DNA from: Sedimenticola hydrogenitrophicus
GTDB taxonomy: Bacteria; Pseudomonadota; Gammaproteobacteria; Chromatiales; Chromatiaceae
NCBI RefSeq assembly: GCF_025175675.1
Contig: NZ_JANIOA010000030.1
Location: forward strand, 1-57,150
Reading direction: 5' to 3'
Length of the DNA stretch: 57,150 bases
A model generated the notes under the pieces. It was not told the origin of the DNA. It made no database searches and was given only the letters and a program-made list of their open reading frames with translations. Both the position numbers and the translations under genes were made by a program. Shown piece by piece: positions 239-24,790 of the stretch (positions are counted from its first letter, which is position 1; the number at the start of each line of letters is the position of its first letter).

Positions 239-256
239 AGTTACCATTCCGTAACC
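239..256. promoter_or_regulatory. Putative activator site 1 upstream of module 1 (AGTTAC-N6-GTAACC)
   Basis: An 18-bp near-palindrome with one mismatch to GGTTAC-N6-GTAACC. It is the most distal of three such sites before the sigma-54 promoter at 583-598. The same motif occurs three times upstream of module 2, so I infer it is the binding site of the NtrC-type regulators in this window. Confidence 0.6.
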
Positions 257-377
257 CGGCGATTCGAATCGGGCCGATGGTCAGTGAGTTGAGTGGGGAT
301 TCGCCCGTACCGGCGGTTCGGCCTTTGGCGGTGGCGCCGGCTCTCACGACCCCGGCCGGGGATGGCCGACGGACCTT

Positions 378-395
378 GGTTACTGGGACGTAACA
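378..395. promoter_or_regulatory. Putative activator site 2 upstream of module 1 (GGTTAC-N6-GTAACA)
   Basis: Second copy of the GGTTAC-N6-GTAACC palindrome, with one mismatch in the last base. It lies about 190 bases upstream of the -24 element, a usual distance for a sigma-54 activator acting through DNA looping. Confidence 0.65.
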
Positions 396-466
396 CAGGG
401 CGTTTTTCGACCACATCTAAAAATAATAATATAAAACAATACGTTAACTGCTGGCTCGTGAGATCT

Positions 467-484
467 GGTTACCATCGGGTAACC
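467..484. promoter_or_regulatory. Putative activator site 3 upstream of module 1 (GGTTAC-N6-GTAACC)
   Basis: A perfect copy of the palindrome, about 100 bases upstream of the -24/-12 element at 583-598. This is the classic position of an enhancer for a sigma-54-dependent response regulator. Confidence 0.7.
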
Positions 485-582
485 CAGCGGCGCCGCTCGA
501 TCCGCTAAATCCCGGTTTCCCCTCCCGCAATGTGAAAAATATCCAGTTATTACAACAAGATAGAAAACCTACAAATAAACTG

Positions 583-598
583 TGGTATGAAAACTGCT
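583..598 (+). promoter_or_regulatory. Sigma-54 (-24/-12) promoter of module 1
   Basis: TGGTATGAAAACTGCT fits the RpoN consensus TGGCAC-N5-TTGCW, with GG (584-585) and GC (596-597) separated by exactly 10 bases. Transcription would start near 609, giving a leader of about 108 bases before the ATG at 717. The cluster's response regulator carries the GAFTGA loop that contacts sigma-54, which supports the call. Confidence 0.75.
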
Positions 599-716
599 TT
601 GGATATTGGCGTTCAGGAACGGTGCCGAAAAAGATATCCAAAAATGGCCATGGCGTTCCTGGCGGCTGTAGGTTCCTTAATCGCTTTCAACATAAATATC
701 ATAAGGAGGATTCCCC

Positions 717-1439
717 ATGCCCGTTGGTCTCCAGGCTGAACCATCCCTGGGCGTGCCCGGTAAAAAACGTTGGGCCATGGTGGTCGACTTGCGTCGATGC
801 ATCGGCTGTATGGCTTGCGTTTGTGCTGACAAGGCTGAATACGATGTGCCGCTTGGCGTATGGCGTACCATCGTAAAGGTCAAAGACACCGGTCACTACC
901 CCAATACCAAACGCCATTTCATGCCGCGTTTGTGCAATCACTGCGACAACCCGCCCTGTGTCCGGAACTGTCCGACCGAGGCCACCTACAAGCACGAGGA
1001 CGGCTTTGTCCTGCAACGCTACGAGCGCTGTATCGCCTGCCGCACCTGTGTCGCCGCCTGCCCCTACAACGCCCGGCACGTGTTGCCGAAGAATCGCGAC
1101 CGCGTGAAGATCGGTGGCGTGGTGGACAAGTGCACCTTCTGCAATCACCGCGTGGAAAAGGGGCTGCAGCCCGCCTGCGTGCAGACCTGTCTGGGCCGTT
1201 CGCGCATCTTCGGTGATCTGAACGATCCCAACAGCGAGGTATCCCGCCTGGTGGCGCGGCACAAGACGGTGGTGCTGAAACCCGACAAGGGCACGCGTCC
1301 CCAGGTGTACTACATCAAGCCGGACCGCGCCCAGACCGAGCAGGTGTTCAGTGCCCCGCACTCCTATGCCGCCCGTTCCGATGCCGAGGATTTCTACCGG
1401 CACAATCGGGGCAGCAAGTTCTTTTCCGGTGTCCTATAG
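717..1439 (+). CDS. Molybdoenzyme electron-transfer subunit B (four 4Fe-4S ferredoxin), module 1
   Basis: This 240-residue protein resembles PsrB/TtrB/NrfC-type subunits that relay electrons between the NrfD anchor and the molybdenum subunit. It has four cysteine groups near residues 27-38, 73-85, 105-117 and 137-158. In the first group the order is CIGCMACVCAD: the fourth ligand of the usual C-x2-C-x2-C-x3-C pattern is Asp, and a Cys sits two residues earlier. The module 2 homologue has Cys there. No Tat signal is present, so it is probably exported by riding with subunit A. The ATG at 717 follows a strong AAGGAGG. It begins the B-C-A-D operon downstream of a sigma-54 promoter. Confidence 0.88.
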   Translation: MPVGLQAEPSLGVPGKKRWAMVVDLRRCIGCMACVCADKAEYDVPLGVWRTIVKVKDTGHYPNTKRHFMPRLCNHCDNPPCVRNCPTEATYKHEDGFVLQRYERCIACRTCVAACPYNARHVLPKNRDRVKIGGVVDKCTFCNHRVEKGLQPACVQTCLGRSRIFGDLNDPNSEVSRLVARHKTVVLKPDKGTRPQVYYIKPDRAQTEQVFSAPHSYAARSDAEDFYRHNRGSKFFSGVL

Positions 1440-2348: not shown

Positions 2349-5018
2349 ATGAGTGACTCTATTAAATTCACCCGCCGCGATTTTATGAAATTCGGCGGCG
2401 CGGTGGGAACCGCCGCCGGCGCCCTGGGCCTGACCAGCAGTCGCCTGGTAGCCATGGAGCAGGACCTGGGGGGCAAGGACTACTCGCCGGCCACCGGCGC
2501 GGAACGCCAGGCGGTGCCTTATACCTGCATGGCCTGCAATATCGAGGACGGCGGTGTCGCCTACGTGGAGAACGGCCGTATCGTCAAGCTGGAAGGCAAC
2601 ATGGATCATCCGAATACCCGCGGCAAGCTGTGCGCCAAGGGTAATTCCGGCTTCCTGCACGTCTACGATCCCGACCGCATCATGACGCCGCTACTGCGTA
2701 CCGGCAAACGCGGCGAGGGCAAGTGGAAACGCATCTCTTATGACGAGGCCACCACCCTGCTGGCAAGCAAGCTGCGCGAGGTGATCGATCGCGCCGATGC
2801 CGAGCATAAACCGGAAATCCTCAACGAGATAGTGTTCAAGTATGGGCGCGATCGTACCGGCGGCGCCGTGGGCCGTTTCATGCACGCCCTCGGTTCCAAC
2901 GCCGTGCTCAACCACACCAATATCTGCGAGTCCTCGAAGAAGATCGGACTGGAGCCCACCTGGGGTCCGGATATCGAGTCCTGCGACTGGGCCAACACCA
3001 AGTACATCCTCAACTTCGGTTCCAATGTCCTGGAGACCGCCTACTTCATGAATCCCAACGCCCAGCGTCTGGTGGATGGCGTGGTGGGCAACAAGGCCAA
3101 GCTGGTGAGCTTCGATGTGCGCATGTCCAACACCTCGGGCTTTGCCGATGAGGCCTTCTTCCCCTATCCGGGCACCGACGGCGCCATCGCCCTGGCCATG
3201 GCCCATGTGATCATGAACGAGGGGCTGCACGATGCTGATTTCATCAGCAACTGGACCAACGTCAGCGTCAAGCAGTTGATCGATCACCTGAAACCCTACA
3301 CGCCGGAGTTCGCCGAGGAGGAGTCGGGGATGTCAGCGAAGGATATTCGCCGCATCGCCCGTGAGTTCGCCACCACCAAACCGGCCACCACCTTCTCCTA
3401 CCGGGGACCCTGCAAGCATGTCTGGGGCTCCTACCAGGAGGCGGCGATCAACATGCTCAACGTCATTACCGGTAACGTGGAGAAGAAGGGCGGTTACTGC
3501 CTGCCCCGGGGCATGGGCTGGCCGCAGCCGCAGCCGGAGCCGCCCAAGGGCAAGACTGCAAGCCTGATCGCCGCGCCGCCGCTCTATCCGCTGGCCTCGC
3601 ACCATGTATCGACCCATGCCCCCTACATGATCAAGAAGGGCGAGGCCAAGGTGTCGGTGTGGATGCACTACTACGACAACCCGGTATACACCTACCCGTC
3701 GAGCCATGTCTGGAAGGAGATGCTGAGCGACGAAAAGCTGATCCCGTTCCAGGTCTCCTTCAGCCCCTACATGTCGGAAACCACGGAGCTGGCGGACCTG
3801 ATCATCCCCGATGTCACCTACCTGGAACGGCACGATCCCGAGTCGATGCCGGGTGGGCTCTATCCCTGCCTCTCCATCCGCCAGCCGGTGGTCAAGCCCC
3901 TGGGCGGCACCCAGGAGTTCCGCCAGACCCTGATCGATGTGATCCACAAGGTCGATCCGGACGGTTCGAAGGGGATGAAGAAGTATTTCGCCTTCAACAG
4001 CGTTGAAGACTGGATGCGCGCCCACTTCGACGCGATCCCGGGCCTCAAGGAGGATGGCGGCTGGGACTTCATGAAGAAGAAGGGGGTCTGGCCCATCTAT
4101 GGCGAGGTGGACAAGGTGACTGCCAAGATCGTCGACAAGAACGGCAACGATGTGGAGCCCGATTACGGCCTCTACACCAAGGAGATCTCCGCCTCCGACA
4201 TGGCCGGGGCCGAGGTCGATCCCGACGGCACCATCAAGAAGGACGGGCAGGCCATCGGCGTGCAAGTCAACGGCCGCAACATGGTCGGCTTCGGTACCCC
4301 CTCGCGGCGCATGGAGCTTTACAAGGCGAGCTACAAAAAGTATGGCTTCAACCCGTTGCCGGTCTACAAGCGTCTGCCCTCCCGGGACAAGAAGGCGGAT
4401 GAGTTGGTGCTGACCACCTACAAGGTGAATGTCCACACCCAGAGCCGCACCGCCTCGCTGAAATACCTGGCCGAGCTGTACCACAAGAATCCGGCCTGGA
4501 TCAATCCGAAGACGGCGGCGGCACGCGGGCTTAGCGACGGGGACCTGATCCGGGTCACCTCCTCGCTGGGTTATATCGTGACCCGTGCCCACGTCACCGA
4601 GGGGATCCACCCGGATGTGGTGGCCATCTCCACCGCCTGCGGCCACAGCGCCTACGGCCGCCTGGCCCAACTCAAGCAGCGCGAGCAGGCGGCGGATTAT
4701 GTGCAGGGGGGTGATGCGGATATCGCCAACAACGTCTGGTGGAATGACAAGGGGGTGCATCCCAACCCGATCATCCGCCTGGCGGTCGATCCCATCGGCG
4801 GTTCCCAGGGCTGGTATGACACGGTGGTCACCGTCTCCAAGGCGGAGTCGGGGGATAAATACGGCGACACCAACGCCAGCCTGGAGGCCTCGATGAAGGA
4901 TTACGAGGAGACCCTGCGCTACGCCTACACCGGCGACATCCACCGCTCCAAGCACCAGGAGGTGGATATCGACTGGAACAGTCTCCCTGAACCTGCGCTG
5001 CCCAGCGGCGGCCATTAA
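2349..5018 (+). CDS. Mo-bisPGD oxidoreductase catalytic subunit A, module 1 (Psr/Arr/Arx/Srd-like, substrate unknown)
   Basis: An 889-residue DMSO-reductase-family enzyme. Residues 9-15 (TRRDFMK) are a Tat signal, so it folds with cofactor before export to the periplasm. The FS0 region near residue 60 reads CMACNIED and the last ligand lies in KLCAKG; aligned without gaps to the module 2 enzyme (CYQCVTRC), the third Cys is Asp. HTNICESSKK contains the probable Cys ligand of molybdenum. The C-terminal domain (about 690 onward) carries cofactor-binding segments such as HTQSRTASLKYL and ACGHSAYGR. Relatives act on polysulfide, thiosulfate, arsenic or selenate. It lacks the GRGWG motif I recall for ArxA, so no symbol is given. 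AGGAG precedes the ATG. Confidence 0.88.
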   Translation: MSDSIKFTRRDFMKFGGAVGTAAGALGLTSSRLVAMEQDLGGKDYSPATGAERQAVPYTCMACNIEDGGVAYVENGRIVKLEGNMDHPNTRGKLCAKGNSGFLHVYDPDRIMTPLLRTGKRGEGKWKRISYDEATTLLASKLREVIDRADAEHKPEILNEIVFKYGRDRTGGAVGRFMHALGSNAVLNHTNICESSKKIGLEPTWGPDIESCDWANTKYILNFGSNVLETAYFMNPNAQRLVDGVVGNKAKLVSFDVRMSNTSGFADEAFFPYPGTDGAIALAMAHVIMNEGLHDADFISNWTNVSVKQLIDHLKPYTPEFAEEESGMSAKDIRRIAREFATTKPATTFSYRGPCKHVWGSYQEAAINMLNVITGNVEKKGGYCLPRGMGWPQPQPEPPKGKTASLIAAPPLYPLASHHVSTHAPYMIKKGEAKVSVWMHYYDNPVYTYPSSHVWKEMLSDEKLIPFQVSFSPYMSETTELADLIIPDVTYLERHDPESMPGGLYPCLSIRQPVVKPLGGTQEFRQTLIDVIHKVDPDGSKGMKKYFAFNSVEDWMRAHFDAIPGLKEDGGWDFMKKKGVWPIYGEVDKVTAKIVDKNGNDVEPDYGLYTKEISASDMAGAEVDPDGTIKKDGQAIGVQVNGRNMVGFGTPSRRMELYKASYKKYGFNPLPVYKRLPSRDKKADELVLTTYKVNVHTQSRTASLKYLAELYHKNPAWINPKTAAARGLSDGDLIRVTSSLGYIVTRAHVTEGIHPDVVAISTACGHSAYGRLAQLKQREQAADYVQGGDADIANNVWWNDKGVHPNPIIRLAVDPIGGSQGWYDTVVTVSKAESGDKYGDTNASLEASMKDYEETLRYAYTGDIHRSKHQEVDIDWNSLPEPALPSGGH

Positions 5019-5055: not shown

Positions 5056-5079
5056 ATTTGCTGATTGGGAGGAGAAGAG

Positions 5080-5838
5080 ATGCAGACAACAACCACTATG
5101 GCATCGGAAACAATAATGGAAAACGGTTTTGAACATGAGCATGAGCGGGTAGCCGAGACCCAGGCCCTGGCCGGGCTGTTCGGCTTCCTGGCCCGCTGTA
5201 TCGAAGAGGAGGCGGATGCGGCCCTGATCGATCTGATCCGCGGCGAACTGCGTGAACCGCTGGCCGCGGCCGGCCTCGGATTCGACGAGGAATTTTATCA
5301 CACCCCGACCGCGACCCTGGTGGAGGTCCTGGCCGAGGAGTACACGGGACTGTTCGTGGCACCGGGTTGCATCAGCCCCTATGCCTCGGTGGTCGAGACC
5401 GGTTGCATGTTCAAGGAGCCGGCGGATCGCGCGGCCGCGGCCTACCGCCAGGCGGGCTGGGACTATCGCAACCGCCTGAGCGGTGAGTTCCCGGACCATA
5501 TCGGCACCATGCTGGGTTTTTATGCCAAGCTGGCCGAAGCCGAGGCGACGGCACGGCTTACCGGGGATAGCGAACGGGCCGAACAGTACCAGACACAGCG
5601 CGAGGCCTTCCTGCTGGAACAGCTGGCCGAGTGGGGGCCGGGCTGGTGCCAGCGCGCCGCCGACGCCGCACTGCTGCCGTTTTACAAACGCTTGCTGGGG
5701 ATGGCCGAACAGGCGCTCTGGTCGGAGCTGGAACAGCGGGTTGAGCGGCGCCGCCTACGCGAACTGGCGGCGCTGAACCGGCGTGAGCCCAAGCGCCTGG
5801 ACTACGACGCCGATTTCCGCAAGGCCTCGGGTCTATGA
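5080..5838 (+). CDS. TorD/DmsD-family molybdoenzyme chaperone, module 1
   Basis: A 252-residue, mostly helical cytoplasmic protein of the TorD family, which binds the Tat signal of its partner and guides cofactor insertion. The family-type segment EEYTGLFVAPGCISPYASV (about residues 84-102) is present. I use the ATG at 5080 because GGAGGAGAAGAG stands right before it. An in-frame TTG at 5065 would add five residues. Its cognate partner should be subunit A (2349-5018), from which it is separated by a stem-loop. The stop overlaps the ATG of the following glycosyltransferase gene (ATGA), so the two are translationally coupled. Confidence 0.82.
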   Translation: MQTTTTMASETIMENGFEHEHERVAETQALAGLFGFLARCIEEEADAALIDLIRGELREPLAAAGLGFDEEFYHTPTATLVEVLAEEYTGLFVAPGCISPYASVVETGCMFKEPADRAAAAYRQAGWDYRNRLSGEFPDHIGTMLGFYAKLAEAEATARLTGDSERAEQYQTQREAFLLEQLAEWGPGWCQRAADAALLPFYKRLLGMAEQALWSELEQRVERRRLRELAALNRREPKRLDYDADFRKASGL

Positions 5839-6989
5839 ACACGCGTGCCCCACGGGTGCTGCTGGTGGAGGGCTCCGGGCGCGGCTTCCTGAGCCACTAC
5901 AGCCACGCCCTGGCGCTCGGCCTGCAGCGGGCCGGTATCGAGACCCAGCTGCTGACCGGCCGGCGCGACGAGCTGGAAGGCTGGGCGGTGTCCTTTCACA
6001 AGCAGACCTGCCTCGACGGTGGTCGGCTCGGCTGGCGCTGTGTGCGCCGGCAGGTTATCGAAACGCGCCCCGACATCGTCCACCTGCAGTGGGTCGACAA
6101 TCCCTTCCGCGCCCTGCGCTTCGTGCGCTGGGCGCACAAACGGGGAGTGCGGGTGGTGTATACCCCGCACAACATCCTGCCCCACGAAAAGCGCTGGCTG
6201 CTGATGCCCGCCTACCGCTTGTTGTATCGCATGATTGACCGGGTGGTGGCGCGTGATGCGCACCTGGCCTGGGCGCTGGAGGAGCTGCTGGACACCCCCG
6301 GGGAGCGGTTGACGCTGTTGCCCGGCAGTCCCAACTTTCTGGCGTTGCAGGTGCTGGAATGCCAGGTTGATTCGCCGGCTCCAAAAAAAGTGGCGGGTGA
6401 GCGTCGACTGCTGTTCTTCGGTCACGGCTGCCGGCGCAAGGGGCTGGACCGGCTGCTGGAAACCGTGGCCGGCAACCACTGGCCCGAGGCGATGCATCTG
6501 GTCGTGGCGGGCGAGGAGGTGCTGAGCGGCATATCGGACGAGTTGCTTGATGCCGCCAGCCGTGCCGCGCGCATCACCCTGATCGACCGCTATGTGGCAC
6601 CCCGGGAGGTGGCCGCCCTGTTCCGGGATGCCGATCTGCTGTTGATGCCCTATGTCAAACAGTGCAAGAGTCCGCTGCTCGATCTGGCCGCCGCGTTGCG
6701 TCTGCCGGTGCTGCGCTCCGACCGGGTGCAGGGCGCCGATTTTCGCGAGGACGTGCACGGCTGTACCTTCTCCCATGACGATCATGCGGCCATGGAGCGC
6801 CGCTTGAAGCAGACCCACTGGCTGTCCGGGGTGAGGGACAGTCTCGCGGCCATGGACGATCCGCTGGCGGCTATCGACCGGCTCGCCGAGGGCCACCGGC
6901 AGCTCTACCTGAAAGTCCGTGAAGAACGTCTGCCGGGCAGTGATATGCATCGGTTTCCGGCCTTTCTCGCACCGCTTTCCGAGGTCTGA
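5835..6989 (+). CDS. GT-B fold glycosyltransferase, group 1-like
   Basis: This 384-residue protein has the two-domain layout of GT4-like glycosyltransferases. The N-terminal domain opens with a Rossmann-like strand and GRGFLSHYSHALA, followed by DIVHLQWVD and VVYTPHNILPHEKR. The C-terminal domain has LLFFGHGCRRKGLDRLLE and an acidic DADLLLMPYVKQCKSPLLDLA segment corresponding to the donor site. There is no signal peptide, so it should act in the cytoplasm. It overlaps the TorD gene by 4 bases. A glycosyltransferase is an odd partner for a molybdoenzyme chaperone, and its acceptor is unknown. A long repeat-filled gap follows. Confidence 0.75.
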   Translation: MNTRAPRVLLVEGSGRGFLSHYSHALALGLQRAGIETQLLTGRRDELEGWAVSFHKQTCLDGGRLGWRCVRRQVIETRPDIVHLQWVDNPFRALRFVRWAHKRGVRVVYTPHNILPHEKRWLLMPAYRLLYRMIDRVVARDAHLAWALEELLDTPGERLTLLPGSPNFLALQVLECQVDSPAPKKVAGERRLLFFGHGCRRKGLDRLLETVAGNHWPEAMHLVVAGEEVLSGISDELLDAASRAARITLIDRYVAPREVAALFRDADLLLMPYVKQCKSPLLDLAAALRLPVLRSDRVQGADFREDVHGCTFSHDDHAAMERRLKQTHWLSGVRDSLAAMDDPLAAIDRLAEGHRQLYLKVREERLPGSDMHRFPAFLAPLSEV

Positions 6990-7383: not shown

Positions 7384-7818
7384 ATGGCGGGTGCGGGACA
7401 GACAGTGATTCTGATTGCGCATGAGCGCAAGCTGCCGGAACTGATCAAACTGATGAAGATCCAGCAGCCGGTATTCAAGGAATACCGGCTGCTGGCGACG
7501 TCCGAGACCGGCGAGGCGATCGAACACGAACTGGCGCTGGAAGTGACACACCTGTTTTCCGGTAAAAAGGGCGGCGAGATCCAGCTCTGCGGCCTGGTCT
7601 GCACCAACACGATTCGGGCGGTCTACTTTATCCGTGACCCGGAGAACCCGGCCGCCGACGAGCCGGATATCAGCCCCTTCTACCGCGCCTGCGATCTGAA
7701 CAACGTGCCCCTGGCCACCAACATGGTCAGCGCCGTCGCCCTGACTTACTGGCTGGGGCGCAAAATCGCCGCGCCGGCAGCGGCGAGTGATTCAAGGGAG
7801 AACGCAGCATGCGACTGA
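7384..7818 (+). CDS. Methylglyoxal-synthase-like (MGS-fold) protein with altered active site
   Basis: A 144-residue protein that aligns along most of its length with methylglyoxal synthase: VILIAHERK, FSGKKGGEIQLCGL, IRDPENPAADEPDI and NNVPLATNMVSA correspond to the phosphate-binding and catalytic segments of MgsA. The general base (Asp71 in E. coli) aligns with Glu, Asp20 with Glu and His98 with Asp, whereas His19 and the Asp of RDP are kept. Ordinary conversion of dihydroxyacetone phosphate to methylglyoxal is therefore doubtful; binding of a small anion or phosphate is an inference. The ATG at 7384 follows AGGAG. Its end overlaps the following ferredoxin gene by 10 bases, which ties it to the redox cluster. 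Confidence 0.72.
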   Translation: MAGAGQTVILIAHERKLPELIKLMKIQQPVFKEYRLLATSETGEAIEHELALEVTHLFSGKKGGEIQLCGLVCTNTIRAVYFIRDPENPAADEPDISPFYRACDLNNVPLATNMVSAVALTYWLGRKIAAPAAASDSRENAACD

Positions 7819-8972
7819 CCACCTCCGAACAGGCCGATGGTTATCTGCGGCTATCCGAAATGATCGTCGAGGAGGAGCTGTGCATCAATCTGCGCGGCCG
7901 CCTGGAGCACTGCACGCGTTGCCGCGATGTCTGTCCCTCCGACGCCCTCAGCCTGTCGGCGGATGCCGTGGATCTGGACCAGCAGAAGTGCACCGGTTGC
8001 AACAGCTGCCTGCCGAGCTGTCCGGCCGGCGCCCTGCGCTCCAGCGGCTTTGTCCCGGAACGTTTCATCTCCGCCCTGGCAGGCCGGGAGCGGGTCGATC
8101 TGCACTGCCGCGCCAGCACGGGGGCGGGCGGCGGGGTGGTCATCCCCTGTCACAGCGTACTTGATGCGCGGCTGATCAGTGCGGCCCGGGCCGAGGGGGT
8201 GGAGACGCTGGCCCTGCATGGCCTGGATCACTGTGCCGAATGCCGTTACGGCGATGCCCGCGACACGCTCCGGCAGGTTGCCGAAACCCTGGTCGAATGG
8301 CTTGGCGAGGCGGCGCCGCTGCTGGATCTGGCGCCCGCTGACGGGGCGCGCAAGGCGGCGCGCGAATACCAGGATCAACCCCATCTGAGTCGCCGTGCCT
8401 TCCTGCGCTTCGGCGGCGCCCAGGCGATGACCCAGGCGGCGGAATGGATCGTTCCCGGCCTCAGCCCGGAGGAGGCGGACGCGGATGCCCTGCCTTTCTA
8501 CCAGAGCAGTGTGTTTCCGCAACGCACGGTCCAGTACCAGGCGGTGCTGGCGAGCCGGGTTGGCCGGGTGCCCTGGAGCGACGGCGCGCCATTGCCCTGG
8601 AAGCTGCGCTCGGTCAATACGTTGTGCAGTGGCTGTCTGGCCTGCGGCGAACGCTGCCCCACGGGTGCCCTGCAGGCCAGTGAGAGCGGCCAGGCGCGGG
8701 AGCTGAGCTTCGACCCGCTGCTCTGCACCGACTGCCTGCTGTGCGAGCGCATCTGCCCCGAAGGGGCGATAGTGCCGCATTCCGCGCTCGCCCTGGATGA
8801 GCTGGAAGCGGGCCGTTCGCTGTTGTGCCACCTCCCGCAACGGCCCTGTGGTCGCTGCGGTACCCCCTTTGTCCCCCGTTCTGTCCCCGGGGACCCGGCG
8901 GAGGAGAACTGCCGGGTCTGCGGTAATGAACAGGATCTGGATGACGAGTGGCTCGACATGCTGTCCGGTTAG
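7809..8972 (+). CDS. Multi-cluster 4Fe-4S protein with an internal twin-arginine motif
   Basis: This 387-residue protein has two ferredoxin pairs. The N-terminal half carries CTRCRDVCP (residues 35-43) and CTGCNSCLPSCP (61-72), plus extra cysteines at about 100, 114, 142 and 145. SRRAFLRFGG at 194-203 looks like a Tat motif but lies in the middle of the chain. The C-terminal half is NapF-like, with CSGCLACGERCP and CTDCLLCERICP, and ends in a rubredoxin-like pair CGRCG...CRVCG. It is probably a cytoplasmic electron carrier or maturation factor for module 1. It is translationally coupled to the MGS-like gene. The internal motif suggests a fusion of two ancestral ferredoxins. Confidence 0.78.
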   Translation: MRLTTSEQADGYLRLSEMIVEEELCINLRGRLEHCTRCRDVCPSDALSLSADAVDLDQQKCTGCNSCLPSCPAGALRSSGFVPERFISALAGRERVDLHCRASTGAGGGVVIPCHSVLDARLISAARAEGVETLALHGLDHCAECRYGDARDTLRQVAETLVEWLGEAAPLLDLAPADGARKAAREYQDQPHLSRRAFLRFGGAQAMTQAAEWIVPGLSPEEADADALPFYQSSVFPQRTVQYQAVLASRVGRVPWSDGAPLPWKLRSVNTLCSGCLACGERCPTGALQASESGQARELSFDPLLCTDCLLCERICPEGAIVPHSALALDELEAGRSLLCHLPQRPCGRCGTPFVPRSVPGDPAEENCRVCGNEQDLDDEWLDMLSG

Positions 8973-9002
8973 GGAGTGACTGTGCCTGTCCAGCGTGCGA
9001 TC

Positions 9003-9082
9003 GATGCGGTTCGTTTCACTCACCGCATCCTACAGGTGCGGCGAGACCGATCGTAGGGTGCCGGTGAGGTACGAACCGCACC
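9003..9082. repeat. Hairpin repeat R3, two half-units in outward order
   Basis: Two blocks, at 9003-9034 and 9052-9082, each match (as reverse complement) the two arms of a repeat at 44829-44912. The first match is 32 of 32 bases. The order of the arms is swapped relative to the other copy, so this looks like the junction of two neighbouring elements rather than one. It sits between the ferredoxin gene and the small cytochrome gene. Confidence 0.65.
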
Positions 9083-9114
9083 AGCCGGGATTGGAAGCAT
9101 CACCATGATGGACG

Positions 9115-9399
9115 ATGCGGGTTAGCTGGGCAGGGGCGGGGGCGGGCGTGCTGTTGACCCTCCTGGCCGGGGCGTTTGCCTGGTGGTGGATGCAGCCGCG
9201 CACGCCGCAGGAGCTGTTCCGCGTGCGCTGCGCCAGCTGCCACGAATTGCGTATCGAGCGACTGTGTGAATTCGCGCCGGCGTTGCGGCCCGCGATCGTC
9301 GAGGTGATGCGCCGCGAACACGGCGCGGACCAGGTGATCAGTGAAGCCGAGGCGCTGGTGATACAACACTACCTGAAGGAAGCGTTTCAATGTCCATGA
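9115..9399 (+). CDS. Small membrane-anchored monohaem c-type cytochrome
   Basis: A 94-residue protein with an N-terminal hydrophobic helix (about residues 8-25, ending WWWM) and a single CASCH haem-binding motif near residue 40. The rest is short and helical, and could supply a distal ligand from Met or His in EVMRREHGAD. It is probably a periplasmic electron carrier tethered to the membrane, or an uncleaved signal-anchor. The ATG at 9115 has no strong ribosome-binding site and follows repeat DNA, so the exact start is uncertain. It runs in the same direction as the surrounding module 1 accessory genes. Confidence 0.65.
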   Translation: MRVSWAGAGAGVLLTLLAGAFAWWWMQPRTPQELFRVRCASCHELRIERLCEFAPALRPAIVEVMRREHGADQVISEAEALVIQHYLKEAFQCP

Positions 9400-9445
9400 A
9401 CAGGCACCATTCATATCAATCCAGGCAGCGGGGTCGGCAGGCACC

Positions 9446-16550: not shown

Positions 16551-17872
16551 CCGAGTCTCCGCGCCTGTGCCTTGTTGAAGATGATGCGATCATGCGCGCC
16601 TCGCTGTGTCAGCGCTTCAAGCTCGAGAGCATCGACTGTGACTGCTTTATCCACGCCGGCGAGGCGGTGGACGCGCTGGCGCAGCGCGACTACGCGGCGC
16701 TGATCAGCGATATCCGCCTCCCGGACATGAGTGGCGAGCAACTCTATGCCCGGCTCCTCGAAGCCGGGCAGCTGCCGCCGCCGACCATATTCATTACCGG
16801 TTACGGAACTATCGACCAGGCGGTGCGCCTGCTCAAGCTGGGGGCCAGCGACTACATCACCAAGCCCTTTGATCTCGACGATCTGCTGCTCAAGCTGCGT
16901 GAAGTCTCGCCCTCGCTGTTCGAGGATATGCACGAGGGGAGTGCCGAGCTGGGCGTGTCGTTAGTGATGCGGCAGCTGAAAAATACCCTCGACCGGCTGG
17001 CGGCGCACCGGGTCGATCTGCTGATTACCGGTGAATCCGGCGTCGGCAAGGAGTACGCGGCGCGCTATTTCGCCAGGCGTTGCAACAAGGGCGACGCCGG
17101 GCCTTTCATCGCCATCAACTGCGCCGCGCTGCCGGAGGACCTGCTCGAAGCCGAGTTGTTCGGCCACGAGAAGGGTGCCTTCACCGGGGCGACCAAGAGC
17201 CGCCGCGGGATGTTCGAGCAGGCCAGCGGCGGGGTGCTGTTTCTCGATGAAGTGGGGGAGACCTCGCCGCGCATGCAGGCCAAGCTGCTGCGCACCATCC
17301 AGGAACGGGTGGTGCAGCCGATCGGCAGCGAGCAGATCATTCCGGTGGATGTGCGCCTGGTCTACGCCACCAACCGGGATCTGAAGGCGATGGTCGACCG
17401 GGGTGAGTTCCGCGAGGACCTCTATTTCAGGGTCAACGTGGCCCATGTGCACATCCCGCCCCTGCGCGAGCGCAAGGAGGACATCCTCTGGCTCACCCAT
17501 CGCATCGTCGACAACTACTTCCATCAACACAAGGCGCGGCGCCTGATCCTGCCGCTGACCGAACGCTATCTCGAAGCCCAGCCCTGGCCCGGCAACCTGC
17601 GTGAACTGGCCAATGCCGTGGAACGCGCCTGCATCCTCTCGCCGCAGGAGGTGTTAGGGCCGCGCGAGTTTGGCGCCACCGGCGAAGAGTCGCTGCCGGC
17701 CTCGGAGCAGCTATCGCTGAAAGAGGCGATGGAGCATTACGAAGAGCGCCTGCTGCGGGAAACGCTGCAACACCATGAATGGCGTATTGCCGAGACCGCG
17801 GAGAGTATTGGTATCAGCCGCAAGAACTTGTGGGAGAAGATGAAGCGCTACGGGATCTCGCAGCCGGAGTGA
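16547..17872 (+). CDS. NtrC-family sigma-54-dependent response regulator, module 1
   Basis: A 441-residue activator: receiver domain (1-120, phosphoacceptor Asp in ISDIRLPD), AAA+ domain (about 135-370) with Walker A GESGVGKE, the sigma-54 contact loop GAFTGA and Walker B VLFLDE, and a Fis-type helix-turn-helix ending ISRKNLWEKMKRYGI. The recognition helix differs little from that of the module 2 regulator (ISRKTLWDKMRKLGL), which fits the identical palindromes upstream of both modules. It should activate the sigma-54 promoter at 583-598 and possibly also the one at 23686-23702. Confidence 0.9.
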   Translation: MTESPRLCLVEDDAIMRASLCQRFKLESIDCDCFIHAGEAVDALAQRDYAALISDIRLPDMSGEQLYARLLEAGQLPPPTIFITGYGTIDQAVRLLKLGASDYITKPFDLDDLLLKLREVSPSLFEDMHEGSAELGVSLVMRQLKNTLDRLAAHRVDLLITGESGVGKEYAARYFARRCNKGDAGPFIAINCAALPEDLLEAELFGHEKGAFTGATKSRRGMFEQASGGVLFLDEVGETSPRMQAKLLRTIQERVVQPIGSEQIIPVDVRLVYATNRDLKAMVDRGEFREDLYFRVNVAHVHIPPLRERKEDILWLTHRIVDNYFHQHKARRLILPLTERYLEAQPWPGNLRELANAVERACILSPQEVLGPREFGATGEESLPASEQLSLKEAMEHYEERLLRETLQHHEWRIAETAESIGISRKNLWEKMKRYGISQPE

Positions 17873-17963: not shown

Positions 17964-18659
17964 TCAGGGTTTCAATGCCTCGATGGCTGCTTGCGCGTTC
18001 GGATAGCCGCTCCGCGCGGCCTGTTGCCACCAGTAACGGGCTCTGTCCAGGTTCTTCTCCAGATGCTCGCCCTTGCTGTAGAAACGTCCCAGATCGGCAC
18101 ACGCGGAGGCATGCCCCTGACTGGCCGCCCGTTCGATCCATTCAATGCCCTCGGCGGGATTGCGTTCTATCCCCCGTCCCGCCAGCAGCATCTCGCCCAG
18201 GCTGTGCTGGGCGTGTGCCTCACCCTGCCCGGCGGCGAGGCGATACCAACGCGCGGCTTCGCTCAGGTCGGGCGCTACCCCGAGCCCCTCTTCGTACATC
18301 GCCGCCAGGTTGTTCTGGGCCGGGGCGTAGCCGGCCTGTGCCGCCTGGCGATAGAGCCTGACAGCGCCGGCGTGGCCGGAAGCGCCAAAGCGGCGCAGCC
18401 GGTTGGCCTGCCGGGTTAGCGCTTCCGGACTCTGCACGGCCTGCCCGCCGCTTTCCCGTACTTGCCCGTCGCCATCCACGGTGATGACATCCTGACTGGT
18501 GTCGTTCTCCGCGTCCCCCCACCAGCCGCAGGCGAAGACGCTGCCGGGCATGGTAACGCCCAGTCCCAGCAGGCTGCCGGCGACAAGGGTGTAAAGCAGC
18601 TGTCGGCTCATTCCAACCAGGCCGGGTTCGGCGAAGGGGAGCGTCTCACGACGCTTCAT
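17964..18659 (-). CDS. Exported Sel1-repeat (SLR) protein, last gene of module 2
   Basis: A 231-residue protein with a hydrophobic leader (MSRQLLYTLVAGSLLGLGV, reached from an internal ATG at 18611) followed by about four Sel1-like repeats, for example GYAPAQNNLAAMYEEGLGV and GEAHAQHSLGEMLLAGRGI. Such repeats form a solenoid for protein contacts. It overlaps the TorD gene by 14 bases when started at 18659, where GAGG is well placed; the shorter start at 18611 gives a cleaner signal peptide. It probably acts in the periplasm as an assembly or scaffold factor. A decayed relative lies at 64-212 next to module 1. Confidence 0.8.
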   Translation of the reverse strand: MKRRETLPFAEPGLVGMSRQLLYTLVAGSLLGLGVTMPGSVFACGWWGDAENDTSQDVITVDGDGQVRESGGQAVQSPEALTRQANRLRRFGASGHAGAVRLYRQAAQAGYAPAQNNLAAMYEEGLGVAPDLSEAARWYRLAAGQGEAHAQHSLGEMLLAGRGIERNPAEGIEWIERAASQGHASACADLGRFYSKGEHLEKNLDRARYWWQQAARSGYPNAQAAIEALKP

Positions 18660-19356
18660 GGTAGGCCTCGAACCGGTTTATCAATTGCGGCAACAACTCC
18701 TGCTGCTCGGCACACAGGTCAGCGGTCAGACGCGCCAGCCCGCGATAGAAATCACTGCCGCTTTCTGATTCCACTTTCTGCAGGAAATCGAACAGCCAGC
18801 GGCCGGGATGTTTCTCAAGGAAGTCCTGCTGATAGTGTAGCGCATCGGACGCCTTGCCCGAATCCCCACTCTCCCAGGCGGAGGCCTCCTCACCGGCGAG
18901 ATGACCGAGAAATTCCAGCTCGATGCTGACATGATCCGGCTCCATGGGTGTCGCCGGATCGATCTCGAACCCCACCGCTGTATAGTATTCACGCACACGC
19001 GCGGTTTCCGGGCCTCGCAGCAGACCGGAGCCCCCTTTGAGTTGCACCGACTCGTGGGGTGAGATCAGGTGGCCAGGTAGCAGGAACAGATGGGTGAACT
19101 CCACCGCCAGTTCATCTGACAGTTCATCCACGTCGGCGTTGAAAAAATCCTCGTCCAGATTCATGCCCGCCAGGGTCAATGCCTCGCGCAGTTCGGTGCT
19201 GCGCAGTGACAGCAGAAGTTGCTGATTCGGCTGGTGGCGGAACAGGGTGGCCAGGAGGCCGTAGAGCGCGGCGCGCTCACGGGCCAGCCCGGCCATGGCG
19301 AGGGTTGAGGCGGCGACCCTCCGATCGCCGCTGCCTTGGGTTGATGAAGTGCTCAT
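18646..19356 (-). CDS. TorD-family chaperone, module 2
   Basis: A 236-residue helical protein of the TorD/DmsD family. Features are LARERAALYGLLATLFRHQ near residue 25, a VEFTHLFLLPGHLISPHES block (about 89-107) typical of the family, and MEPDHVSIELEFLGHLA in the middle. It should bind the Tat leader of subunit A encoded directly upstream and help load the molybdenum cofactor. Its start overlaps the end of subunit A by 4 bases, a tighter coupling than in module 1, where a stem-loop intervenes. Confidence 0.85.
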   Translation of the reverse strand: MSTSSTQGSGDRRVAASTLAMAGLARERAALYGLLATLFRHQPNQQLLLSLRSTELREALTLAGMNLDEDFFNADVDELSDELAVEFTHLFLLPGHLISPHESVQLKGGSGLLRGPETARVREYYTAVGFEIDPATPMEPDHVSIELEFLGHLAGEEASAWESGDSGKASDALHYQQDFLEKHPGRWLFDFLQKVESESGSDFYRGLARLTADLCAEQQELLPQLINRFEAYHEAS

Positions 19357-21878
19357 GTCTTACTCACCTGTACCACGGTATCCATCCAGCGCTGTTGCCC
19401 GTTGATCGGATCGGGCGAGTTGGCGATGATCCAGTTGGGATGCATGCCGTTATCGTCCCTCCACCAGATGCGCTCCAGATCGGGATCATCATCACGGCCA
19501 CCGGGTGCCTTGTTGCCCGAGGCGTAGCGGCCATACTCCCAGTGCCCGCAGTGGTGGGAGATGGCGATAACTCCCAGATTGATGGCCGGTGTCACTTTCG
19601 CCTCGGTGATGATCTCTCCAATGGGTGACTTGACCTTGATTTCGTCACCATCCTTGATACCGCGCTTGGCGGCTTCCACCGGATTGATCCAGGCCGGATT
19701 CTTGTGATAAAGCTCGGTCAGGTACTTGCAGTTCACCGAGCGTGAATGGATCTGGGTGGCCACCTTGAAGGTGGTCATGATCAGATCGTCCGGCCCCATC
19801 TTTTCATGCTCTGGAATGGCGGTCCAGGTGGGCAGGGGCGGAAAGCCTTTCTCTTCAACCAGTCCCGAGTAGATCTCCAGGTAACCCGACTTGTTGAGCT
19901 TGTCCGGTTTGAAGCCCGAGTAGACCTTGTCGCCGATACGCTGGCCCACATAACCCGTGTACGACTTCTTGGTGTGGGTGTAGCCCTTTTCCAGCGCCGC
20001 TTCACGCGACTCCGCATGCGCCTTCTTCCAATCCCAGTAGACGCCGGTCTCGGCATCGTAGACCACGGAATCCTTCTCGTACGCCTCGGGCTTGAGCTCC
20101 TTGCGGTAGCTGAAGTAGAGCGGTTCGGCCTTCGGGTCGTGGTAAACGCCATACTGCTTCATGTACTCGAAGCCACCGACCGCCGCCACCTCCGGCGTCA
20201 TCTCGCAGGAGAGCCGCACGAACTCCTCCTTGGTCTGGTATCCCAGCGGGGTACCGAGCCGTTCGGCCAGTTCACACACCACGTCACCGAAGTCGCGCGT
20301 TTCGCCCAGGGGCTTGGCGGCCGGTTGGCGGATGTAGAACTCCGGGATCTGTACCGGCGAGACCATGTCTTCCCAATCCCAGCGTTCTGTATAGGTCGGC
20401 TCGGGCAGGATCAGGTCGGCCAGCGCCGCGTTCTCGTCATAGAATGGTGAGCACACCACAAAGTAGGGGATCAGCGACTCGTCCTTGAGGATTTCGATAT
20501 TCTCCTGGGTTTCGCCGTTGGCGTAGATCGGGGTGTACTTGTAGGTCATGTAGATCTCGGGTCGCCCGGCGCTGCCCTCCTTGATCATCTTCAGTACATT
20601 GTGGCTCATGTGATGGGTGGGCAGCGCGGCGGCCCCCTTTGGGCCATCCAGGATCGCCAGCTTGCGTGCCTTGGGCAGATCCTTCGGACCCTTGGGAGAG
20701 TGCCACTTGGGTCCCACCGCCTTGCAGCGGCCACCCGGGTTGTCGATATTGCCGGTGATTGCCGCCAGGGTCTGCAGTGCCCGCTCGGTGTCATTGCCGT
20801 TATAGTGGGCCACCGCGCCGCGGTAGCTGATGGCGCAGGCGGGTCGTGCCAGGGCGAATTCGCGGGCGACCCGACGGATGGTGTCGGCCTCCACGCCGCT
20901 GATCTTCTCCGCCCATTCGGGGGTGTACTGGCCGAAATGGGCCTTGAGGGCGGCGACCTTCTCTTCCGTGCCTGCATGATTGTCGCCGGTTGCCTTGCAG
21001 AAGCTCAAGAAGGCCTCGCCGTCGCCCTTGTACAGATCCTCGCTCATCACCACGTTGCACATGGCCAGAACCACCGCCAGATCGGTACCGGGTTTGACCG
21101 GGACCCATTCGGAAGATTTGGCGGCGGTATTGGAGAGCCGCACGTCGAAGGTGACCATGCGCACATTGCGCTCCGCCATGGCCCTGATCAGGCGGTGGGA
21201 GGTGGGAACGTGATTGGTGCCGGCCTCGAACACATTGGAGCCGAAGTTGAGCACGAAGCGGGTATGGTCGAAGTCCCAGGTGTCGTAGTGCCCACCCCAG
21301 GTGAGTTCCTGCGCCGTCCACTTGCCCCCCTCGCAGATCGAGGTGTGGTCGCCGATGGTCGCGGTACCCACGGAACCCAGGAAGGTCTTCACCATTTTGC
21401 TGGTGGAGGATTTCATGCGCCCGTAATGGAACATGAATTTCTCTGGTTCGCCCCGGTCCTTCAGCGTCTGGATGCGGGCCGCCAGTTCGCTCAGCGCCTC
21501 GTCCCAGGAGACCTGTTTCCACTTCCCCTCGCCACGGGCGCCGACCCGTTTCAGCGGATAGAGGATACGATCGGGATCGTTCGGCTGGTTGACCCCGCCC
21601 TGGCCCTTGGCACACATCACCCCTTCCGAGCGGATCGAATTGATCTGTCCCTCGATCTTGACCACGCGTCCGTCCTCGACATAGGTGACGTTGGGACAGC
21701 GGGTGACGCACTGGTAACAGGCACTCGGTACCGCCTTGCGCTCACGGCCGGTCTTGGGTGAAAAGTCCTGGTTGCCCCAGGCGTGCATATCCGCCGCCCT
21801 GGTCATCACCGCGGTGCCGGCGAGGCCGGTAGCGGCCGAGGCGGCACCCAATTTGAGAAAGTTTCTACGATTCAACAT
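19353..21878 (-). CDS. Mo-bisPGD oxidoreductase catalytic subunit A, module 2 (Psr/Arr/Arx/Srd-like, substrate unknown)
   Basis: An 841-residue periplasmic molybdoenzyme with Tat signal NRRNFLKLGAAS. FS0 uses the complete CYQCVTRC...MCAKG set near residues 54-90. HTSICEGGKWTAQELTWGG contains the probable Cys ligand to Mo. The C-terminal cofactor domain has IHSRSVNCKYLTELYHKNPA, closely matched in the module 1 enzyme. By gene order B-C-A it resembles selenate reductase SrdBCA rather than arx (A before B and C). It lacks the GRGWG (ArxA) and RGRY (ArrA) signatures as I recall them; HYGRMKSS stands at that place. Function as a reductase of a sulfur, selenium, arsenic or antimony compound is inferred. 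Confidence 0.88.
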   Translation of the reverse strand: MLNRRNFLKLGAASAATGLAGTAVMTRAADMHAWGNQDFSPKTGRERKAVPSACYQCVTRCPNVTYVEDGRVVKIEGQINSIRSEGVMCAKGQGGVNQPNDPDRILYPLKRVGARGEGKWKQVSWDEALSELAARIQTLKDRGEPEKFMFHYGRMKSSTSKMVKTFLGSVGTATIGDHTSICEGGKWTAQELTWGGHYDTWDFDHTRFVLNFGSNVFEAGTNHVPTSHRLIRAMAERNVRMVTFDVRLSNTAAKSSEWVPVKPGTDLAVVLAMCNVVMSEDLYKGDGEAFLSFCKATGDNHAGTEEKVAALKAHFGQYTPEWAEKISGVEADTIRRVAREFALARPACAISYRGAVAHYNGNDTERALQTLAAITGNIDNPGGRCKAVGPKWHSPKGPKDLPKARKLAILDGPKGAAALPTHHMSHNVLKMIKEGSAGRPEIYMTYKYTPIYANGETQENIEILKDESLIPYFVVCSPFYDENAALADLILPEPTYTERWDWEDMVSPVQIPEFYIRQPAAKPLGETRDFGDVVCELAERLGTPLGYQTKEEFVRLSCEMTPEVAAVGGFEYMKQYGVYHDPKAEPLYFSYRKELKPEAYEKDSVVYDAETGVYWDWKKAHAESREAALEKGYTHTKKSYTGYVGQRIGDKVYSGFKPDKLNKSGYLEIYSGLVEEKGFPPLPTWTAIPEHEKMGPDDLIMTTFKVATQIHSRSVNCKYLTELYHKNPAWINPVEAAKRGIKDGDEIKVKSPIGEIITEAKVTPAINLGVIAISHHCGHWEYGRYASGNKAPGGRDDDPDLERIWWRDDNGMHPNWIIANSPDPINGQQRWMDTVVQVSKT

Positions 21879-22845: not shown

Positions 22846-23589
22846 TTAGACCCTCTTCTGTTGGCGACGATGGGTCTCGATACGGACGTAGAGGCCCTGA
22901 CGGGCCGCGTCACGTTCATCCGTATGATCCGCGTCGATGTAATAAACCATGGGTTCGGTGCCCATCTCGGGACGCAATACCGTGGTGGTGTTGGTCGCCA
23001 GGAGCCTGGATATCTCGCTCTCGGGATCATTGAGATCACCGAAGATGCGCGCCTTGCCCTGACAGGTGTTGACGCACGACGGGACCAAGCCGTTGGCTAC
23101 CCGGTGCAGGCAAAAATCGCACTTGTCGGCGGTACCTGTCTTGGTATTGATGAAGCGCATCCCGTAGGGGCAGGCCTGCAGGCAGTATTTGCAGCCGATG
23201 CAGATGTCGCTGTCCACCACCACGATGCCGTCCTCCGGGCGTTTGTAGGTGGCACCGGTGGGGCAGACGGAGACGCACTGTGGTTTTTCGCACTGGTTGC
23301 AGAGTCTGGGCAGGAAACTGCGACTGACGTTGGGAAAATTACCCTTCTCTATGAACTCGACCCAGCTGCGCGTCTCGCCCAACGGGACGTCGTTTTCTGT
23401 TTTGCAGGCAACGCTGCAGGCCTCGCAGCCGACGCAGCGACGGGTATCGATGAGCATGCCGTAACGTTTCGGTTTCTCGACCGAGATGGCGACGCCGGGT
23501 GCCGCCACCGCCGTGGCCGCCACCGCCGAACCGCTCGCGAGTTTCTTTAGAAAGTCTCGGCGGGAGACCTGGGTTTTGGATTCACTCAT
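22846..23589 (-). CDS. Molybdoenzyme electron-transfer subunit B (four 4Fe-4S) with Tat signal, module 2
   Basis: A 247-residue ferredoxin subunit of the PsrB/TtrB/NrfC type. The leader SRRDFLKKLASGSAVAATAV is a Tat signal, absent from the module 1 homologue. All four cluster motifs are complete: CVGCEACSVAC, CNQCEKPQCVSVCP, CIGCKYCLQACP and CDFCLHRV...CVNTC. The start at 23589 is preferred over an in-frame ATG at 23643 because AGGAGG stands 8 bases before it and the Tat motif then sits near the N-terminus. It is the first gene after the sigma-54 promoter at 23686-23702. Confidence 0.88.
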   Translation of the reverse strand: MSESKTQVSRRDFLKKLASGSAVAATAVAAPGVAISVEKPKRYGMLIDTRRCVGCEACSVACKTENDVPLGETRSWVEFIEKGNFPNVSRSFLPRLCNQCEKPQCVSVCPTGATYKRPEDGIVVVDSDICIGCKYCLQACPYGMRFINTKTGTADKCDFCLHRVANGLVPSCVNTCQGKARIFGDLNDPESEISRLLATNTTTVLRPEMGTEPMVYYIDADHTDERDAARQGLYVRIETHRRQQKRV

Positions 23590-23685
23590 GGGCTTTGCCT
23601 CCTGGGTGACATTTGAAATGAAAGGTGATACTTCTTGTGTCACGGTTGTGAAATTTTGTTGTAATAGTGCTTCCGGTTACTTTTA

Positions 23686-23702
23686 AGCATTTATGGTGCC
23701 AG
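23686..23702 (-). promoter_or_regulatory. Sigma-54 (-24/-12) promoter of module 2
   Basis: On the minus strand TGGCACCATAAATGCTT matches the RpoN consensus with GG and GC exactly 10 bases apart. Transcription would start near 23675, leaving a leader of about 86 bases before subunit B. Three palindromes lie 85-200 bases upstream, as in module 1. Confidence 0.8.
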
Positions 23703-23785
23703 CCTGCAAAATAGCCGTAATTAGATGAAAAACAACGATAATATTTTTCCTGCTGGTGATCCGGTCGAATCAATGCAAGGGTATT

Positions 23786-23803
23786 GGTTACGGTCGTGTA
23801 ACC
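23786..23803. promoter_or_regulatory. Putative activator site 1 upstream of module 2 (GGTTAC-N6-GTAACC)
   Basis: A perfect 18-bp palindrome about 85 bases upstream of the module 2 sigma-54 element, with the same half-sites and spacing as 467-484. It also lies in the leader of the divergent sensor operon, which could be autoregulated through it. Confidence 0.7.
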
Positions 23804-23825
23804 TTTGTTTTTTTACGGGAATTAG

Positions 23826-23843
23826 GGTTACAAAAACGTAACA
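23826..23843. promoter_or_regulatory. Putative activator site 2 upstream of module 2 (GGTTAC-N6-GTAACA)
   Basis: Second palindrome, 40 bases from the first by start position, which is close to four helical turns, so regulators at the two sites would lie on the same DNA face. One mismatch, in the last base, the same as in the module 1 site at 378-395. Confidence 0.65.
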
Positions 23844-23860
23844 ACGCGGGGTATCTGCTC

Positions 23861-24790
23861 ATGAACGGGTTACAGAGTCGTAACCGACGAAGAGTTCTCC
23901 AATCGGCTGCCTTGTTGCCGATCTATTTATTGGGAAGCGGCACTCTATTCCCAGGTATGAAAAGTATACTTCCCGGGATTGGGAATCCGGCCTGGGCCGG
24001 CAACCTTGGGGTACGCTTCGGTATGACCCCCGCCTTTCTGCACGATCAACACTCCCTACTGGAGGACTGGCGCCACTACATGACCCGTCGGTTGGGCGTC
24101 AAGGTCGAGTTCACCCAGCGCGACAGCTACCGCGAAACCATGGACCTGTTGCGGCTCAATCAACTCGATTTCGCCTGGGTCTGCGACTACCCCTATCTGC
24201 ATCTGCGCCACCTGGTGCGACTGCTCGCGGTGCCGCTCTACCAGGGTAAGCCGGTCTACCACTCCTATCTGATCGTCAATGCCCGTGATGCGCAGAGCCG
24301 GGGCATCGCTGATCTGCGCGGTCAACTGTTCGCCTATGCCGATCCCTATTCCAATTCCGGCTATCTGGTACCGCGCTACCAGATCCACCTGCTCGGCGAG
24401 GATCCGGAGCGGTTCTTCAAGAAGAGTTTCTTCACCTGGTCCCATCGCAAGGTGGTGGAGGCGGTCGCATCCGGCCTGGCCCAGGGTGGCGCGGTTGACA
24501 GTTATGTTTGGGATACCCTGGCGGCACTGGATCCGGAACTGACCAGGCGTACCCGTATAGCCTGGAAATCCCCCGGCTACGGTTTTCCACCCATGGTGGC
24601 GCATCGCACCAATGTGGGGGAGACCGATTTCCAGCTGATGCAGGAGCTGCTGCTCGGGATGTCGGCGGAGCCCGAGGGGCAGGATCTGCTCAAGCGCCTG
24701 AATCTGGATGGCTTCAGTGTTCAGTCACCCGAGCTTTATGACAGTGTTGCGGAGATGATGCGGGTCTTCGGTGAGTACGACCCGGCGTGA
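23861..24790 (+). CDS. PhnD-like periplasmic binding protein, sensor component of module 2
   Basis: A 309-residue exported binding protein, paralogous to the one at 14233-15114. The leader NRRRVLQSAALLPIYLL has a twin-arginine look, although Sec export is equally possible. Pocket segments AWVCDYPYLHLRHL, SYLIVNARD and KKSFFTWSHRKVVEAV are nearly the same as in the paralogue. I chose the ATG at 23861, which has GGGG at a suitable distance and places the leader at the N-terminus; an open frame extends back to 23756. It starts the sensor operon that diverges from the module 2 structural genes and overlaps the kinase gene by 4 bases. Confidence 0.8.
   Translation: MNGLQSRNRRRVLQSAALLPIYLLGSGTLFPGMKSILPGIGNPAWAGNLGVRFGMTPAFLHDQHSLLEDWRHYMTRRLGVKVEFTQRDSYRETMDLLRLNQLDFAWVCDYPYLHLRHLVRLLAVPLYQGKPVYHSYLIVNARDAQSRGIADLRGQLFAYADPYSNSGYLVPRYQIHLLGEDPERFFKKSFFTWSHRKVVEAVASGLAQGGAVDSYVWDTLAALDPELTRRTRIAWKSPGYGFPPMVAHRTNVGETDFQLMQELLLGMSAEPEGQDLLKRLNLDGFSVQSPELYDSVAEMMRVFGEYDPA
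23868..23885. promoter_or_regulatory. Putative activator site 3 upstream of module 2, inside the sensor gene start
   Basis: A perfect palindrome 42 bases from the second site. It falls within codons 3-9 of the divergent binding-protein gene (start 23861), so one sequence serves both as coding DNA and, by inference, as an enhancer site. Confidence 0.65.

Follow-up and report, generated by a model that had tools for sequence, protein, structure and literature searches.

The 57,150-nucleotide stretch of Sedimenticola hydrogenitrophicus DNA analyzed here (the window) carries two molybdoenzyme modules, each with its own triad of an AioX-like periplasmic sensor (X), a sensor histidine kinase (S), and a sigma-54 response regulator (R), and each with three copies of the palindrome GTTAC-N6-GTAAC upstream, followed by a sigma-54 -24/-12 element. 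We consider these six palindromes to be the predicted binding sites (upstream activating sequences) of the AioR/ArxR-type regulators R1 and R2, and we assign this reading a probability of about 0.88. The palindrome is very probably the variant of the known AioR-type operator that belongs to beta- and gammaproteobacterial regulators, and its distribution suggests a wider use than is described in the searchable literature.

Our motif scan located all six palindromes where an earlier note on this DNA had placed them. Upstream of module 1 these are operators 1a (240–255, GTTACCATTCCGTAAC), 1b (379–394, GTTACTGGGACGTAAC), and 1c (468–483, GTTACCATCGGGTAAC), and upstream of module 2 they are operators 2a (23787–23802, GTTACGGTCGTGTAAC), 2b (23827–23842, GTTACAAAAACGTAAC), and 2c (23869–23884, GTTACAGAGTCGTAAC), none with an assigned strand. 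The core GTTAC-N6-GTAAC is exact in all six and has no further copy in the window. The earlier note had described an 18-mer, GGTTAC-N6-GTAACC, of which the 16-base pair (bp) core stood while the outermost G/C did not. The full form is perfect in three of the six sites (467–484, 23786–23803, and 23868–23885), with one outer mismatch in the other three, and the outer G/C was rejected as part of the operator because it is not conserved among 259 distinct sites from relatives and the window, where only A is rare at that position. With up to three mismatches, the 18-mer occurs 15 times in the window and is not more common than in shuffled sequence (mean 10.7); the case rests for this reason on the exact core. 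The sites are spaced by 139 and 89 bp in set 1 and by 40 and 42 bp in set 2. As had been claimed, a good -24/-12 element follows each set, namely GG-N10-GC with flanking consensus at 583–598 on the plus strand for module 1 (TGGTATGAAAACTGCT) and at 23701–23686 on the minus strand for module 2 (TGGCACCATAAATGCT), and both have the sequence features of predicted sigma-54 promoters. Because operator 2c coincides with early codons of X2, the PhnD-like gene (codons 3–8 if the ATG at 23861, chosen by eye, is the start), set 2 appears to be common to two divergent operons; a counterpart of this site is also present in a relative (L037).

Both triads are contiguous in the order X-S-R (hereafter XSR) and adjoin a molybdoenzyme. 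The first (14140–17872, plus strand) comprises X1 (14140–15114, with a real start perhaps at 14254), the HAMP sensor histidine kinase S1 (15111–16550), and R1 (16547–17872), and the second (23861–27578, plus strand) comprises X2 (23861–24790, with a twin-arginine start seen by eye), S2 (24787–26250), and R2 (26247–27578). In comparison with the PDB, AioX was the best solved relative of X2 (6esk, 9e-64), ahead of ArrX (4e-38) and PhnD (5e-14), and the cysteine equated with AioX Cys106 (numbering from PMC5908839) was invariant in 16 of 16 X sequences. R1 has a receiver-AAA+-Fis architecture by Pfam, and AtoC was the best NCBIfam match for both R1 and R2, though under the cut-off. The GAFTGA motif ascribed to both regulators was confirmed, as was the likeness of their recognition helices (SRKNLWEKM in R1 and SRKTLWDKM in R2), which are near-identical among the three regulators of the organism, including that of a third triad described below. 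Judged by the type of X, the architecture of R, and the position of XSR next to a molybdoenzyme, both triads can be assigned to the AioXSR/ArxXSR type.

The comparison with characterized systems supports this placement and also delimits it. AioXSR of Agrobacterium GW4 and Rhizobium NT-26 has the same gene order, an AioX-type sensor, and an AtoC-like sigma-54 regulator, and the AioR operator is likewise a 16-bp GTT-N10-AAC palindrome at a sigma-54 promoter, a geometry found in all six window sites. However, the footprinted AioR site is GTTCGG-N4-CCGAAC, whereas positions 4 and 5 are AC rather than CG in every window site; the recognition helix reads SR-T in AioR and SR-K here, and the window enzymes are not the arsenite oxidase Aio. 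ArxXSR with arxB2ABCD resembles the window in that XSR adjoins B, A, NrfD, and TorD-type enzyme genes, and an enzyme of a relative (L048) 78% identical to a Cereibacter protein (the ORIO protein) has the same GTTAC operator; we take both proteins to be ArxA from gene order rather than from their records. In contrast, A1 and A2, the catalytic subunits of modules 1 and 2, are only 28–29% identical to the ORIO protein, and the order in the window is B-C-A. TtrSR and the window triads would both regulate molybdoenzymes, but S1 scores 60 bits against a TtrS cut-off of 750, and TtrR is not known to be a sigma-54 activator.

The form of the operator was not undescribed, contrary to the earlier note, because the AioR consensus GTT-N10-AAC shares its geometry, and a DNase footprint was obtained for one such site, GTTCGGATTTCCGAAC, in A. 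tumefaciens GW4 (PMC5335332). The MEME motif of that work, GT[TC][AC][CG]..., already admits GTTAC. A putative RpoN promoter and an ArxR site were predicted by homology beside the Alkalilimnicola arx genes (PMC5908839), a betaproteobacterial aox promoter required AoxR, AoxS, and RpoN (PMC2848651), and control of arx by arxXSR was described in 2019 as not demonstrated (PMC6549141). Our literature search, which covered few subscription papers and went beyond the listing for only some of the papers, found no report of the GTTAC form of the operator, nor of AioX-like triads linked to selenate or chlorate enzymes or to serABDC, clr, or pcr operons.

Across the 4.71-Mb genome, placement rather than raw count constitutes the evidence, since there are 10 exact cores against 5 matches of a reversed control pattern. 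Six of the 10 fall in the window (if the 10 were placed at random, 6 or more would share a single 57-kb window with a probability of 6e-10), and 9 stand at molybdoenzyme or XSR promoters. A third triad (L031:2515-11694, G000:C78) is divergent from a type II dimethyl sulfoxide (DMSO) reductase operon, with two GTTAC sites 93 bp apart between them and a sigma-54 element downstream of the sites. The A, B, chaperone, and heme b subunits of this operon all score above curated cut-offs, a full set like that of serABDC, clr, and pcr operons, although this operon lies outside the window. A fourth molybdoenzyme operon (L032:9101-15083, G000:C78:27101) has a lone operator and a -24/-12 element, with no triad next to it, and its A subunit is TtrA-like, yet far under the TtrA cut-off (368 versus 1750 bits). 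Orthologs of this subunit (75–79% identical) directly adjoin XSR triads in ten named loci (L174, L175, L180-L182, L184, L189, L193, L194, and L201), with an exact site in nine and a one-mismatch site in L184, which supports the lone site as a real target. The remaining exact site (C35:64373) was taken as chance, since searches with the query genes placed neither a molybdoenzyme nor a triad near it, and one-mismatch 18-mers elsewhere (C1, C64, C66, and C86) were rejected as targets because the surrounding stretches (L033-L036) contained no query gene.

For the comparison with relatives, similarity to X2 or to alignment A1 served to select 180 triads from 176 loci, a few of them duplicates (for example, L040 and L191 coincide, as do L038/L039 and L126); a locus in which X or R was missing or cut gave no triad. 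An unbiased search over all 5-base arms and spacers of 0–14, applied to 153 distinct upstream regions of the 157 triads outside the Thr class defined below and to 22 distinct regions of the 23 Thr triads, ranked GTTAC with spacer 6 first, in 117 of the 153 regions and in none after one shuffle. Second came TTACC with spacer 4 (80 regions), and the two combine to GTTACC-N4-GGTAAC. At least one exact site was present in the fetched stretch of 69 of the 80 named loci, the top 80 retained from at least 577 relatives, and only in three (L177, L178, and L186) was it confined to the inside of the triad. Module-1-type promoters of relatives (L097-L106) carried one to three exact sites in nine of ten cases. 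On our own consensus scale, a -24/-12 element with a score of 0.7 or more lay within 300 bp of 112 of 147 operator clusters, compared with 8 of 147 after shuffling, at a median distance of 90 bp for the 108 clusters with an element on one side only. As in X2, a site lay between -25 and +60 relative to the first ATG in frame with X in 33 of the 121 triads with an upstream site. Thus, the palindrome occurs at orthologous promoters across genera and is not scattered at random over the genome, the two points on which its standing as a defined operator of this regulator family, as the earlier note had proposed, was to be judged; both support that proposal. Recurrent spacings between sites were 41–43, 52, 89–93, and 158–159 bp (among 112 spacings below 500 bp). 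Phasing at 10.5 bp, with a mean phase near zero, is suggestive (p ~0.02 over 34 distinct spacings below 200 bp; p = 0.15 over 21 below 100 bp) and no stronger, because the spacings are not independent. Order-wide, an X2 homolog was found in 54 of 210 genomes, all 54 of which have a site somewhere in the genome, versus 70 of the 156 without a homolog at the threshold used (Fisher 1.5e-15). The site is not always at the triad, as one genome (G022) has its one site on another contig.

The operator class varies together with the regulator. Lys follows the conserved Arg of the recognition helix in 142 of the 180 triads, 115 of which have GTTAC sites and 1 a GTTCG palindrome. Thr occupies the position in 23, alphaproteobacterial where named, with GTTAC in none and GTTCG in 14; in the 15 triads whose helix was unread, GTTAC was found in 7 and GTTCG in 1. 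In named alphaproteobacterial triads, including those of NT-26 and pSinA, the helix is [SA]RTTLWEKM, and the enzyme genes are preceded by palindromes that match GTTCG exactly or nearly. GTTAC sites together with [ST]RKTLW occur in Hydrogenophaga aio and Azoarcus KH32C. The nine Thr loci without a counted site contain an exact GTTCG palindrome (L264), one-mismatch forms (seven loci), or a two-mismatch form (L245). Of the loci with Aio genes, 19 have a Lys regulator and 22 a Thr regulator; GTTAC was present in 16 of the former and GTTCG in 13 of the latter. The single arx-like locus under a Thr regulator carries GTTCG; the enzyme labels here are coarse, being the best match among a few query proteins in the whole stretch, taken in a fixed order of preference. 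Operator class therefore follows the regulator and not the enzyme, a conclusion drawn from one split in the regulator tree, which was built from 70 of 161 usable regulators (21 of them Thr-type). Because the Thr regulators form one clade, helix and operator changed together at least once, and we hypothesize that the Lys/Thr residue acts as an operator switch; a proven recognition code was rejected, the Thr type representing one clade and one change. A GTTCA..TGAAC palindrome in 8 of the 23 Thr-type triads is possibly coding. In one metagenome-assembled genome labeled Hyphomicrobiales (L125), the regulator is of the Lys type and falls within the beta/gamma clade, and the GTTAC sites carry one mismatch, reflecting transfer or mis-binning.

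Several observations weigh against the six palindromes being operators of these regulators. Raw counts of the core are not above those of the reversed pattern in many relatives (for example, 4 versus 12 in G137), many having more control than real matches, and raw genome-wide enrichment was discarded as evidence. One of the ten module-1-like promoters fetched (L106) has no exact site. No exact site lies within 3 kb of the triad in 27 of the 142 Lys-type triads: a one-mismatch site lies upstream in 14 of these, six belong to module-1 operons with a promoter 10–14 kb away that does bear sites, and three are cut by contig ends (L070, L144, and L161), but the remaining four (L038, L051, L167, and L251) fall outside all these explanations. 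Finally, the association between helix and operator stems from a single branch of the tree, with one change in one clade.

If the palindromes are binding sites of R1 and R2, the periplasmic AioX-like X would bind an oxyanion and signal through the kinase S, and phosphorylated R would assemble on two or three GTTAC-N6-GTAAC dimer sites. The GAFTGA loop of R would then contact sigma-54 polymerase at the -24/-12 element, some 60–155 bp away in most relatives, thereby turning on the operon for the molybdoenzyme B-C-A. The module 2 sites are flanked by divergent operons, and operator 2c reaches into the start of X2, which makes it probable that the same R also adjusts the expression of its own XSR2 operon. 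The recognition helices make cross-talk between the two systems plausible. One alternative accepts the operators as real and insulates the regulators, with R1 acting on set 1 only and R2 on set 2 only. Each triad indeed adjoins its own module, and the differing site arrangement could allow higher-order assembly to discriminate between the sets. Set against this are the near-identical helices of the three regulators, the same core half-site, and the fourth, TtrA-like operon, which has a site and a -24/-12 element without a triad beside it, which makes remote action by one or more of the regulators probable. We regard full insulation as a substantial possibility, although at less than even odds.

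The palindrome might instead be bound by an unlinked regulator, such as one that represses anaerobic or metalloid genes, which shares these promoters by chance. Such a regulator would fit the sites in the 70 relatives without an X2 homolog at the threshold used, as well as the 11 of 16 fetched site-bearing contigs without X that show none of the query genes. The other five, however, carry S-R (L271 and L273), a module-1 operon (L270), aioB (L284), or an R homolog 2.5 kb off (L283). Moreover, sites and XSR triad go together in many genera and with six enzyme groups, and the GTTCG class, which equals the footprinted AioR site, appears where the regulator helix differs. On balance, we judge an unlinked regulator to be improbable. 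The kinase-regulator pairs of L271 and L273 have an operator just upstream, with no X gene detected in the stretches examined. That the palindromes are products of chance or of repeats and have no function is extremely improbable: a motif-like repeat with 54 exact matches does exist in one relative (G038), but the clustering in the window, the top rank in the unbiased search, and the conservation at the same kind of promoter across genera speak against it. Most of the G038 matches among those listed are GTTACATCCCTGTAAC or a close form and probably constitute a repeat family unrelated to XSR.

Beyond binding by R1 and R2, we tentatively propose, at just under an even chance, that AioX-type triads serve general oxyanion sensing in beta- and gammaproteobacteria rather than arsenic sensing only. 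In this proposal, GTTACC-N4-GGTAAC would control five or more classes of enzyme (Aio, ArxA-like, type II Ser/Clr/Pcr-like, TtrA-like, and the B-C-A enzymes of the window), and a single Lys/Thr helix residue would set GTTAC versus GTTCG. If true, the motif could be used to find further oxyanion-respiring enzymes, as with the fourth operon here, and to outline the regulons of uncharacterized oxyanion enzymes. An exact candidate operator sequence is now at hand for arxXSR-type control, AioX-type sensing would be linked to molybdoenzymes outside arsenic metabolism, and operator choice receives a one-residue hypothesis.

The ligand of XSR2 is most likely arsenite or another arsenic-group oxyanion, given that X2 shares 63% identity with the PhnD-like protein encoded in a Sulfuricella arx-like cluster (its closest match among plasmid records), that AioX is its best solved relative, and that an arsenic island encoding ArsR, Acr3, an ArsJ-associated GAPDH, and ArsJ lies in the window (37872–43157, minus strand). 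The acr3 gene is single in the genome, and the exact core scan of the window found no GTTAC operator at the island. Other oxyanions are likely for some triads, because S. selenatireducens (G083), which has three X2 homologs, is reported not to respire arsenate (PMC5052931), and because the neighbor of one triad type is a type II operon. Near the arsenic island, we also observed a C-GCAxxG-C-C protein and a SigZ-like factor.

Module 1 has the order B-NrfD-A-TorD plus accessory genes and closes with X1-S1-R1, all on the plus strand. Domain, structure-relative, and profile searches identified the Fe-S subunit B1 with 4Fe-4S dicluster domains (717–1439), the NrfD-type membrane anchor C1 (1451–2338), the DMSO reductase-family molybdopterin oxidoreductase A1 (2349–5018), and the TorD-like chaperone D1 (5065–5838). 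The rest of the module (7809–14044) encodes a ferredoxin-like protein, two Mrp/ApbC-like ATPases, a rhodanese-domain protein, and a multiheme cytochrome, in an order kept in L042, L043, L044, L061, and others. A glycosyltransferase-4-like gene (5835–6989, plus strand) is also kept together with the module in relatives. Module 2 lies on the minus strand, divergent from X2-S2-R2, in the same B-NrfD-A-TorD order, with the Fe-S subunit B2 (22846–23643, 4Fe-4S dicluster domains), the NrfD-type membrane anchor C2 (21890–22843), the molybdopterin oxidoreductase A2 (19353–21878), and the TorD-like chaperone D2 (18646–19356). A2 is 80% identical to an enzyme of Aromatoleum toluclasticum, and A1 is 57% identical to one of Azoarcus KH32C whose gene is near ars genes; the best solved relatives of both are 2vpw (named thiosulfate reductase) and ArrA. 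Neither is regarded as ArxA (29% and 28% identity of A1 and A2 to the ORIO protein, versus 57–78% among ArxA-like proteins in local alignments) or as ArrA (179 and 203 bits with the curated model, cut-off 1600). A methyl-accepting chemotaxis protein gene (27592–29634, minus strand) with no exact operator at its promoter adjoins XSR2, and mcp adjoins aio in A. tumefaciens GW4 (PMC5335332). More distant X homologs (L213-L228, family f40) stand in short stretches in which no S, R, or enzyme gene was detected. In a Sedimenticola relative, an exact operator (L061:4522) is intergenic before an ABC transporter pair, 2.3 kb past the R1 ortholog.

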